From Pseudidiomarina gelatinasegens (GTDB lineage: Bacteria; Pseudomonadota; Gammaproteobacteria; Enterobacterales; Alteromonadaceae): 64,000 nt of DNA. The notes under the pieces are model-generated. The model did no database searches, was not told the origin of the DNA, and worked only from the letters and a program-made list of their open reading frames with translations. Location of the stretch: positions 1 to 64,000 of the forward strand of contig NZ_RSFE01000001.1 in NCBI RefSeq assembly GCF_004025325.1. Direction: 5' to 3'. How positions within the stretch are numbered: position 1 is the first letter of the stretch; each line of letters begins with the position of its first letter. Made by a program: the position numbers and the translations under genes. This document shows, piece by piece, positions 31,966 to 34,614 of the stretch.

Positions 31966-32361
31966 TCAGGCAGTTGTCTGTTGTGGTTCACCTGTAGCTG
32001 CCGCTAAGTCAGTTAACAAACCAAGCAAGCGTTTTGCATCAACAGGTTTTGGAAGGCACAAGTTCGCGCCCGCTTTGTCAGCTAGCGGCTGCACTTGCGA
32101 TGCATCTTGTGTGGTCATCAATATAATAGGGGTTTGTTGATATTGCTCTATTTGGCGCAGGCTCTTTATTAAAGACAAGCCATCCATTAAGGGCATTTTA
32201 TGATCAACCAATACCACATCAAAATGATGATTTTTACTACGATTTAAGCCGTCAAGGCCATCATTGGCGCAACTTATCGTAAACGGGCTTTGTTCGATAA
32301 TTTGAACAAGTTGATCCCGCGTCGCTGGCTTATCCTCAACCAGCAATAATTGAAGTGACAT
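31966..32361 (-). CDS. Single-domain response regulator (CheY-like)
   Basis: A 131-residue stand-alone receiver domain. The acidic pocket has E9/D10, the phosphoacceptor is D53 in VVLVDHKMPLMDG, ILMTTQ carries the switch Thr, and LPKPVD the conserved Lys. There is no output domain, so it must act by protein contact, as CheY or Spo0F do. No histidine kinase or chemotaxis gene is visible in the window, so its partner is unknown. It lies 8 bp before apt and 24 bp after the 41-residue membrane peptide. Confidence 0.88.
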   Translation of the reverse strand: MSLQLLLVEDKPATRDQLVQIIEQSPFTISCANDGLDGLNRSKNHHFDVVLVDHKMPLMDGLSLIKSLRQIEQYQQTPIILMTTQDASQVQPLADKAGANLCLPKPVDAKRLLGLLTDLAAATGEPQQTTA

Positions 32362-32385: not shown

Positions 32386-32511
32386 TTACGCTGAAAAGAA
32401 TTTGTACCATGCGAGTACCGCAGGTAACACTGGAACTGCAACGAATACAACTACTGCAAGCCAGCCCATTTTTACGCCCGATTCATCACGGAAGTTTTGA
32501 TCATGTGCCAT
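32386..32511 (-). CDS. Small single-pass membrane protein of unknown function (41 residues)
   Basis: A 42-codon frame starts at ATG 32511, with GAGG 9 nt upstream. The first 14 residues are polar (MAHDQNFRDESGVK), followed by one hydrophobic helix (residues about 15-36, MGWLAVVVFVAVPVLPAVLAWY), and it ends KFFSA. An N-in, single-span topology is likely. I do not recognise the family. It lies 45 bp downstream of hvfC and upstream of the CheY-like gene on the same strand. It could be a membrane accessory of the hvf locus or an unrelated small protein. Confidence 0.7.
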   Translation of the reverse strand: MAHDQNFRDESGVKMGWLAVVVFVAVPVLPAVLAWYKFFSA

Positions 32512-32556
32512 AAAATACATCCTCACTGACTAATATTTTGCGGTGCGGATCATACT

Positions 32557-33318
32557 TTAATTGGCCGATGGGAACAACATGGCTCTTTGGTATAAATCCG
32601 GAACCGTATTTACCAGACCTTGATATAGCTGCGACTGGTCAAATTGTGGTAATTGCTGTGCCAATGCTTCAGCTATTTCTGCCAAGCTCTGGCTGGGGTG
32701 CTGCTGTAAATAGTCCACTAGCAACATTGTAACTGGATTAAGTTGCATGAATTTGACACGTGAAGTGAAGTACAGTTCCGCGCCTTCATCAACCCGATAA
32801 ACGGCTAAAAAAATAGGCGTTGCAAGAGGTTCGTCCGGAATAGCGTCAGCCGCGATAGTGTGCACCGGATAATCAAATGCGTGCCACGTTAACGATGGGT
32901 TCACGCGCCAAGTAAGTTCCTCAATAGCGCGCGAGGTGGGCGCTGCACGACACGTTTCCGAAAAATGGTAAGCATCAAGCTCCATTCTCTCGTAAACCGC
33001 CAATTGATAGCAGAATGGCGGTAGCCACGAGGCTTCGTAGTTGGAAATAAAGGTCACAAACTCGGTACCAATTTCAGCAAACAGCGGCGATGTCGCTTGG
33101 TGTTTTGCAATAAAATCGTCGACCAAAAGCTGCCAGTGTTGCGCGCTTAATACTGATTTTAACACCGGAAAGCCCCGCGCAATAAATCCATCTATATTAT
33201 TGCGAACCAAGCGCTGATAAACAGCTAGGCGCCTTTGCTCGGCCGCAGGCGGCGCAGCTGAATTGGGCTCTCGAAGCCACGCAGCCCACTGAAGTTGAAT
33301 ACGTTTAAAGTCAGACAT
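32557..33318 (-). CDS. hvfC: HvfC-like DUF2063 partner of the MNIO enzyme
   Basis: A 253-residue protein of the DUF2063 (HvfC/BufC-type) family. The N-terminal motif LRRLAVYQRLVRNNIDGFIARGFPVLKSVLSAQHW (here RRLAVYQRLV onward) is diagnostic; the C-terminal half is a small winged-helix-like domain. By family knowledge these proteins bind the precursor leader and present it to the DUF692 enzyme. It starts 8 bp after hvfB and is the third gene of the hvfA-hvfB-hvfC operon. Confidence 0.88.
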   Translation of the reverse strand: MSDFKRIQLQWAAWLREPNSAAPPAAEQRRLAVYQRLVRNNIDGFIARGFPVLKSVLSAQHWQLLVDDFIAKHQATSPLFAEIGTEFVTFISNYEASWLPPFCYQLAVYERMELDAYHFSETCRAAPTSRAIEELTWRVNPSLTWHAFDYPVHTIAADAIPDEPLATPIFLAVYRVDEGAELYFTSRVKFMQLNPVTMLLVDYLQQHPSQSLAEIAEALAQQLPQFDQSQLYQGLVNTVPDLYQRAMLFPSAN

Positions 33319-33326
33319 AACTGGGT

Positions 33327-34130
33327 TTAAGCCTTCGCAGCTACCGCCTTTACAGCGTTCACTTCTTGCAACAAGGTAGCGAGCGGCGGCACATTAAAAT
33401 CACGCTCAAGCAACATCGGAAATTCACCGTGCTGTTGATATGCATAGTTCATTAAGTCGAACACTTCCTGTCGGATATCGGCGCCATGGGTATCAATTAA
33501 TAAGTCCGGCGCCTCTTCAAAGTGGCCGGCTATATGCCCATAGGTGATTCTTTCGGTTGGTAAACCGCGGATGAATTCGTGCGGGTCATAATTATGGTTT
33601 ACGCTATTCACGAACACGTTGTTCACGTCCAGTAATAGCTCGCAATCCGACTTATCCAACACGCGGTTAATAAACTCCAACTCGGAGATATCTGTCGCTG
33701 CTGGCGTGTAGTAGGAAACGTTTTCAAGCACTAAAGGCCGCTCAATAAGCTCTTGTACACGACGAACGCGTCCCGCCACATAATCAGCCGCGTCTTCACT
33801 GAATGGAATGGGTAGCAGGTCATACAGATGCCCCTGTGCCGAACAGTAGCTCAGGTGCTCGCTATAACGCTCAATTTTGAAGCGATCAAGAAACTCCTTA
33901 ACCCGAAGAACAAATTTTTCGTCCAGCGGATCAGGGCTGCCAATTGAGAGTGACAAGCCGTGACAACTAATTGGGTACTGTTCACGTATACGATCGAGCT
34001 GATACGTGGCTTCATAACCGCGATCGAGCCAGTTCTCTGGAGCAAGTTCCCAAAAATCAACGGCGGGCGTTTGTTGCAATACGTCCTGCAAAAACTCCCG
34101 CCGTAAGCCAAGACCTACTATGCGCCGCAC
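33327..34130 (-). CDS. hvfB: HvfB-like DUF692 multinuclear non-heme iron oxidase (MNIO)
   Basis: A 267-residue DUF692/MNIO TIM-barrel enzyme. VGLGLRREFLQDVL is the typical N-terminus. Likely iron ligands lie in ISCHGLSLSIGS (His), YSEHLSYCSA (Glu, His), LENVSYY (Glu), LLLDVNNVFVNSVNH (Asp, Asn, His), ITYGHIAGHFEE (His) and IDTHGADI (Asp, His). MNIO enzymes modify precursor cysteines; HvfB of Haemophilus influenzae installs oxazolone/thioamide groups at EGKCG motifs. Translation most likely starts at GTG 34130, overlapping the hvfA stop by 13 bp, so the two are coupled. Confidence 0.93.
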   Translation of the reverse strand: MRRIVGLGLRREFLQDVLQQTPAVDFWELAPENWLDRGYEATYQLDRIREQYPISCHGLSLSIGSPDPLDEKFVLRVKEFLDRFKIERYSEHLSYCSAQGHLYDLLPIPFSEDAADYVAGRVRRVQELIERPLVLENVSYYTPAATDISELEFINRVLDKSDCELLLDVNNVFVNSVNHNYDPHEFIRGLPTERITYGHIAGHFEEAPDLLIDTHGADIRQEVFDLMNYAYQQHGEFPMLLERDFNVPPLATLLQEVNAVKAVAAKA

Positions 34131-34498
34131 TTCCCTTCACCGCATTTGCCTTCGCCACACTTACCTTCTTCTTTCATTTTGGCTTTTTCAGCAGCCTTTT
34201 CTTTGGCTTTGTCGCCGCCGCATTTGCCTTCACCGCATTTGCCTTCGCCGCACTTACCTTCTTCTTTCATTTTGGCTTTTTCTTTGGCTTTTTCGCCACA
34301 CTTGCCTTCTTCTTGCATTTTGGCTTTATCTTTATCGGCGCCACAACGCATTTCTTGTTGTTGCTGCTGTTCTTGTTGATAGCCACCAGCGAGTTCAGCA
34401 TAACCAAATGGATTCGCTGACGCAGACGCTGTTGCGCCCGCTGCGCTTACCAATAATGCACCTACTGCAACTGATACTGATTTTTTCATGGCTTTCAT
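34118..34498 (-). CDS. hvfA: HvfA-like RiPP precursor with seven EGKCG motifs
   Basis: A 126-residue secreted peptide precursor. Residues 1-28 form a Sec signal peptide (MKAMKKSVSVAVGALL onward, ASASA before the likely cut). A Gln-rich stretch follows (about 41-48), then a Lys/Glu/Cys-rich tail. EGKCG occurs at 64-68, 80-84, 85-89, 90-94, 111-115, 116-120 and 121-125, plus an RCG at 51-53, giving eight cysteines in these motifs. Residues 73-94 are repeated exactly at 104-125. The EGKCG motif is the modification site of the oxazolin HvfA. AGAGG precedes the ATG. The antisense frame is open only because of codon bias. Confidence 0.92.
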   Translation of the reverse strand: MKAMKKSVSVAVGALLVSAAGATASASANPFGYAELAGGYQQEQQQQQEMRCGADKDKAKMQEEGKCGEKAKEKAKMKEEGKCGEGKCGEGKCGGDKAKEKAAEKAKMKEEGKCGEGKCGEGKCGA

Positions 34499-34540
34499 GA
34501 TTTTTTCCTCTTGGTTTGTTATGTCTAACTAGACTAACAC

Positions 34541-34552
34541 TTTCTATAGAAA
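34541..34552. promoter_or_regulatory. Perfect palindrome in the hvfA upstream region
   Basis: TTTCTATAGAAA is a perfect 12-bp palindrome 43 bp before the hvfA start codon. With one extra base on one side it extends to ACAC...GTGT flanks. It overlaps where the hvfA promoter is expected, so it may be an operator. The regulator is unknown. Confidence 0.4.
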
Positions 34553-34580: not shown

Positions 34581-34614
34581 AAACAAAAAACCCCGCAAAA
34601 AAGCGGGGTTTTAC
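34581..34614 (-). terminator. Rho-independent terminator after the TonB-operon TPR gene
   Basis: AAACCCCGC pairs with GCGGGGTTT (centre 34597-34602) and on the minus strand runs into a long T tract. It separates the six-gene TonB operon from the hvf operon. Confidence 0.88.

Follow-up and report, generated by a model that had tools for sequence, protein, structure and literature searches.

Three genes, hvfA, hvfB and hvfC, lie in that order on the minus strand between positions 32557 and 34498 (reading from 34498 to 32557) of the window, the whole stretch of 64,000 nucleotides from Pseudidiomarina gelatinasegens that was analysed. The genome comprises 2.47 Mb in 28 contigs and encodes one MNIO. 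The features of the locus are as follows.

34118..34498, minus strand: hvfA, precursor peptide of 126 aa with seven EGKCG, eight Cys and a signal-peptide-like N-terminus (NF050137, 34.7 bits).
34379..34393, minus strand: LAGGY, HvfA residues 36-40, an LxxGY motif and candidate HvfC recognition sequence, proposed from position and conservation.
34295..34309, minus strand: EGKCG repeat 1, predicted modification site.
34217..34261, minus strand: EGKCG repeats 2-4, predicted modification sites.
34124..34168, minus strand: EGKCG repeats 5-7, predicted modification sites.
33327..34130, minus strand: hvfB, MNIO (DUF692) maturase of 267 aa with a GTG start (family models, active-site residues).
32557..33318, minus strand: hvfC, DUF2063 and PqqD-like RRE partner protein of 253 aa (family models, structure model, fold match 3DEE).
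34587..34612, minus strand: intrinsic terminator upstream of hvfA, separating it from the TPR gene of the TonB operon (20 aligned loci of the genus and 3 hvf-less loci).
32386..32511, minus strand: 41-aa predicted membrane ORF, a neighbour outside the cassette (kept in hvf-less genomes of the genus).

A first-pass annotation of this DNA had described a secreted 126-residue precursor with seven EGKCG motifs, a 13-bp overlap with hvfB and an 8-bp gap to hvfC. Both counts are confirmed, as are the overlap (34118-34130) and the start of hvfC 8 bp past the hvfB end; the N-terminus is signal-peptide-like by eye and similar across 20 loci of the genus. The same annotation began the cassette at 32386, which takes in the separate 41-aa ORF (32386-32511), not an hvf gene. 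The EGKCG motifs start at HvfA residues 64, 80, 85, 90, 111, 116 and 121, a number beyond chance (maximum 1 and mean 0.0056 in 20,000 residue shuffles). Each hvfA that adjoins hvfB in 20 loci of the genus encodes 4 to 9 EGKCG, and all 20 have an LxxGY-type motif after an NPF or like start.

The assignment of the locus as HvfABC-type, for which DUF692, DUF2063 and HvfA profiles had been named as a check, holds for all three proteins, each of which exceeds an NCBIfam cut-off. HvfB matches PF05114 (E 2.4e-102) and reaches 404 bits against the HvfB model NF003818 (cut-off 360). HvfC matches DUF2063 (E 4.1e-24) and NGO1945_C (2.5e-18) and reaches 228 bits against NF050145 (cut-off 142), while HvfA lies above the cut-off of 19.5 bits for NF050137, the HvfA-family domain of repeated KCGExKCG. 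The narrow HvfA equivalog NF050188 is the part of the profile check that did not hold (21.6 bits, cut-off 95). HvfB stays below the bufferin maturase model NF050167 (278.7 bits, cut-off 310) and the methanobactin MbnB model TIGR04159 (45 bits, cut-off 325), and the family scan gave no match of HvfA to DUF2282, the bufferin precursor. HvfA thus belongs to the family without being a near copy of its H. influenzae member. The lack of a DoxX gene, pointed out earlier for the neighbourhood, extends to the whole window genome, in which PF07681 gave no match at E 0.001 while control genomes did match; a DoxX partner elsewhere in this genome was therefore rejected. Within the genus DoxX is present in 11 of 26 genomes, either separated from hvfB by at least 390 kb or carried on a different contig. 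Also as annotated before, a scan of the neighbouring proteins (TPR, TonB, ExbD, two ExbB-like, receiver, Apt, DnaX and the 41-aa ORF) found no sigma or anti-sigma factor. The hint that these missing genes set the locus apart does not stand, since the fon cluster is described with only three genes (PMC13097082).

The iron-site residues of HvfB (H57, H92, E136, N170, N171, H199, D213, H215 and E242, with D244 as presumed base) were inspected for loss of ligands, which had been named as grounds for refuting the assignment. The ligands are intact: iron-site residues align with 3BWW, and H57, H92, E136, D168, N170, N171, H199, H203, D213, H215, E242, D244 and F245 are identical in 80/80 named relatives. 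The counterparts of D213 and H215 in the HvfB studied in PMC13419390, D242 and H244, are reported there as essential. R10 is kept in 79/80 and R11 in 74/80 relatives. By motif, R10/R11 and D244/F245 match Arg15/Arg16 and Asp249/Phe250 of FonB, pairs reportedly tied to EGKCG substrates, the Arg pair being described as the gate for the EGKCG Glu (PMC13097082). The structure model of HvfC (pLDDT 93.1) has 3DEE (NGO1945) as its best fold match (E 5e-10), followed by MbnC (E 4e-3), with PqqD as a weak match (E 0.18).

Across the genus hvfB is found in 23/26 genomes at one chromosomal site, the EGKCG pair pattern is found in 23 genomes, and every hvfB-bearing genome also has hvfA (23/23). The TPR gene of the ExbB-ExbD-TonB operon lies upstream in 21/23, the other two loci running off their contigs; downstream are the 41-aa ORF, a receiver gene and dnaX, with apt lacking a match in 4/23. 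In the three genomes without hvf genes the distance from TPR gene to 41-aa ORF is ~130-160 bp, and the terminator hairpin that precedes hvfA in 20 aligned loci stands in the same place. The stretch upstream of the 41-aa ORF is similar in 5 hvf-bearing and 3 hvf-less loci, with TATGAT (once TATCAT). The absence of the cassette alone, the terminator before it and the ORF's own upstream stretch together mark hvfABC as a separate unit. The 41-aa ORF, found in 26/26 genomes, was rejected as an hvf gene because 3/3 hvf-less genomes keep it, and the TonB/ExbBD/TPR operon was rejected as part of the system because the three hvf-less genomes keep it and a terminator stands at its end. Trees of hvfBC and of the chromosome agree broadly and require two presence/absence changes; the groups without hvf genes fall within hvf-bearing ones, which makes two losses likely. 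End branches of HvfB/HvfC are longer than those of flanking proteins of the same genomes (0.28 vs 0.082 for the window). The 41-aa ORF has no Pfam/NCBIfam match and lies just before a stand-alone receiver-domain protein (31966-32361, minus strand). The search upstream of hvfA gave neither a regulator box nor a copper-responsive promoter: apart from the terminator, little is conserved across the 20 loci, and sigma-70-like sites there are at chance level (2 found vs 3.0 expected).

The window cluster is an ordinary, well-preserved member of a known family whose chemistry has been revised and whose clusters are counted in tens of thousands (PMC13097082). It is very probably a minimal captophorin/oxazolin (HvfABC-type) cluster, in which HvfC-guided HvfB would make 5-thiooxazole and exported HvfA would bind Cu(I). 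HvfA would carry a Sec signal peptide when synthesised. Before export, HvfC would bind its N-terminal part in the cytoplasm and present the EGKCG repeats to HvfB, whose iron cluster, with O2, would convert the Cys of EGKCG to 5-thiooxazole, with a change of -4 Da at each of up to seven sites in a peptide. After export, modified HvfA would bind Cu(I) in the periplasm, where its most likely role is copper buffering. The first-pass annotation had proposed oxazolone/thioamide pairs, but oxazolin has been reassigned to 5-thiooxazole (PMC13097082; PMC13419390); the -4 Da per Cys remains a valid mark. It had also placed the chemistry in the periplasm, which may stand for the product but probably not for the modification: by eye, neither HvfB nor HvfC has a signal peptide, and modification is therefore expected before export. 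That the enzymes install a different group, e.g. oxazolone/thioamide, is quite improbable. The NCBIfam name still reads oxazolone/thioamide-modified and the window product is a prediction; yet the relatives HvfB, FonB and NgoB are all reported to yield 5-thiooxazole, as carried by oxazolin, fontiphorin and gonophorin (PMC13097082), and the window HvfB has the same active-site pairs.

A copper-binding product, as annotated earlier, is the likeliest reading from homologues. Bulbicupramide, from the EGKCG peptide MmrA, is reported to bind Cu(I), with no appreciable binding of Fe(III), Ni, Zn or Mn (PMC12538549), and copper binding is reported for fontiphorin and gonophorin (PMC13097082). The physiological role of the product is the least certain part. 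Co-expression in E. coli gave slight growth help at 2 mM copper, and the Microbulbifer authors are, in the accessible text, hesitant about a protective role (PMC12538549). The same cluster and chemistry could instead serve another stress (other soft metals, redox), with copper incidental. This seems unlikely, the metal preferences just cited speaking against it, but not negligible: the accessible text describes the Microbulbifer relatives as undetected under copper stress (PMC12538549), and gold and oxidative stress are reported also to induce such pathways (PMC13097082). Further, P. planktonica (G014, L064) keeps hvfBC without hvfA, and a detached HvfA with nine KCG is encoded elsewhere on that contig, with a CDF cation-efflux gene 5 bp downstream (L177:5709-7063). 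The adjacency hints at a shared metal response of the detached hvfA and the CDF gene; the CDF family is not generally known for copper export.

Separation of precursor and enzymes is seen elsewhere too. In two Idiomarina (L178, L179) hvfBC lies at the TPR/apt/dnaX site and hvfA elsewhere, between aspartokinase-like and uppP-like genes (names by eye). Stand-alone precursors have been noted before (PMC12452194). HvfB-type genes L067, L069, L076, L094 (Methylophaga), L081 and L130 showed no EGKCG precursor nearby, nor did the EGKCG pair pattern match anywhere in their genomes; other substrates are possible for these enzymes.

Some HvfA-like peptides occur without an HvfB-type enzyme. Among 118 genomes of the bacterial family the HvfA domain is found in 89 and an MNIO in 85. 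Twenty of the 89 are without any MNIO (17 of them at least 90% complete), a combination called rare in the accessible text of PMC12452194, and a further 14 have BufB-like MNIOs only (24/24 proteins at most 288 bits for HvfB or unlisted; cut-off 360), for a total of 34 genomes with an HvfA-like peptide and no HvfB-type enzyme. Peptide sequences come from 76 of these 89 genomes; the other 13, all MNIO-bearing, are unread. Scored as [LMI]xxG[YF] before the first KCG, in a comparison whose rows are kin, the motif is present in 34/35 peptides adjoining hvfB, the 35th (L221) being masked in the leader (34/34 readable; the L274 peptide is broken by masked bases but readable in its leader). It is also present in 6/6 non-adjacent or contig-end peptides from genomes with an HvfB-type enzyme, three of the six lying outside the 118 genomes, and in 0/20 and 0/14 peptides of the MNIO-less and BufB-only genomes. 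The four genomes of the genus in this sample all carry it, and shuffled N-termini give it by chance in 4.7%. The first residue of the leading x-x-K-C-G is Glu in 228/228 repeats adjoining hvfB, mostly Lys in the MNIO-less set (Lys 100/137, Glu 14/137) and likewise in the BufB-only set (Lys 59/92, Glu 3/92).

The MNIO-less peptides retain NPF (20/20) and 8 to 17 KCG. These secreted HvfA-like KCG-repeat peptides (L193, L208, L212, L235-L251) possibly form an enzyme-free metal-binding family. Within 1.5 kb of the 34 enzyme-less peptides lie a dusC-like gene (name given by eye) in 28 and TPR in 3, at least one of 41-aa ORF, receiver, apt and dnaX in 17/34, and at least one of all six in 34/34; the 35 enzyme-adjacent loci have TPR in 12 and the dusC-like gene in 4. 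This fits a single orthologous slot for both kinds of peptide, the dusC-like gene alone being weak proof. Weak matches to the 41-aa ORF (34-43 bits) stand beside 13/34 enzyme-less peptides. A quick dusC-like tree, with long branches, splits 28/34 enzyme-less rows from the 4 available enzyme-adjacent rows (SH-aLRT 99), so loss of hvfBC may be a single event and the 34 genomes may form one clade. Gain of the enzymes elsewhere is a formal alternative, against which counts the presence of hvfB with LxxGY precursors in Pseudomonas and Oleispira. These 34 relatives, and the three genomes of the genus that lost all three hvf genes, could also suggest that HvfA of the window is an unmodified, secreted metallothionein-like peptide, with hvfBC decaying or dispensable. 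This is very improbable: HvfB and HvfC of the window are intact, hvfB and hvfA co-occur in 23/23 genomes of the genus, and unlike the enzyme-less peptides HvfA retains LxxGY and the Glu.

Loss of both LxxGY and the EGKCG Glu from enzyme-less peptides singles these out as features that the enzymes would read. The pattern suggests an N-terminal motif for HvfC and a Glu that faces the HvfB Arg pair; LxxGY is thus a candidate recognition sequence for HvfC in the EGKCG branch, proposed from sequence comparison. Among 80 named loci, of which 15 showed no nearby precursor, the motif is found in 50/65 precursors adjoining hvfB; against its role, 15/65 are without it (10 Stenotrophomonas-type, one Moraxellaceae and four Bacteroidota). 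LxxGY was not found in the text of the literature searched, figure logos and supplements lying outside that scope. In Junger et al. 2026 the signal peptide is reportedly the leader. FonA with Arg in place of Glu is reported as unprocessed (PMC13097082). Also against the role of LxxGY, FonA tolerated single Ala changes before the core (PMC13097082). DUF2063-type RREs are reported with variable leaders and, in the accessible text, no specific motif (PMC12710340). A further point against LxxGY is that removal of the signal sequence reportedly left HvfA with hardly any modification (PMC13419390), which gives the signal a part as well. The joint reading, tentative and held at somewhat less than even confidence, is that F-x4-L-x-x-G-Y directly after the signal peptide would be read by the HvfC RRE and each EGKCG Glu by HvfB; a neighbouring clade would have lost hvfBC from the slot, and its peptide would have lived on unmodified, shedding both features and keeping the Cys repeats as a natural enzyme-free descendant of oxazolin, presumably still metal-binding. 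The cluster itself is of known type; the new part, worth follow-up, is the comparison with enzyme-less relatives. Relatives that have both peptide and enzymes, enzymes but no peptide beside them, the peptide but no enzymes, or none of these form a natural comparison set that makes testable what DUF2063-type RREs recognise and whether the unmodified peptide is useful.

Among the nearest known systems, oxazolin of nontypeable Haemophilus influenzae (hvf operon) shares the secreted EGKCG-repeat precursor, the HvfB-family MNIO and the HvfC-family partner. It differs in having six modifiable Cys vs seven EGKCG in HvfA of the window and in its DoxX-like HvfX, which the window cluster is without, and the window HvfA is below the equivalog cut-off. 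Bufferins (BufABC) are alike in MNIO with DUF2063 partner, secreted precursor and 5-thiooxazole (predicted for the window), and differ in that the window HvfB is under the BufB cut-off and the precursor is not DUF2282. Methanobactin (MbnABC) also combines MNIO and partner, MbnC being the second structural match of the window HvfC, but its product is oxazolone/thioamide and HvfB fails the MbnB model (45 of 325 bits). Bulbicupramide (mmrABC, Microbulbifer) likewise comes from a marine gammaproteobacterium with an EGKCG precursor, MNIO and DUF2063 protein; MmrA differs in its five to eight Cys, and mmr expression was tested and, according to the accessible text, not found (PMC12538549). Fontiphorin (fonABC, Fontimonas thermophila) is alike in having only precursor, MNIO and PME1 partner, in its seven modified sites (predicted for the window) and in its Arg-Arg and Asp-Phe pairs, a likeness drawn from the published description of fonABC (PMC13097082).
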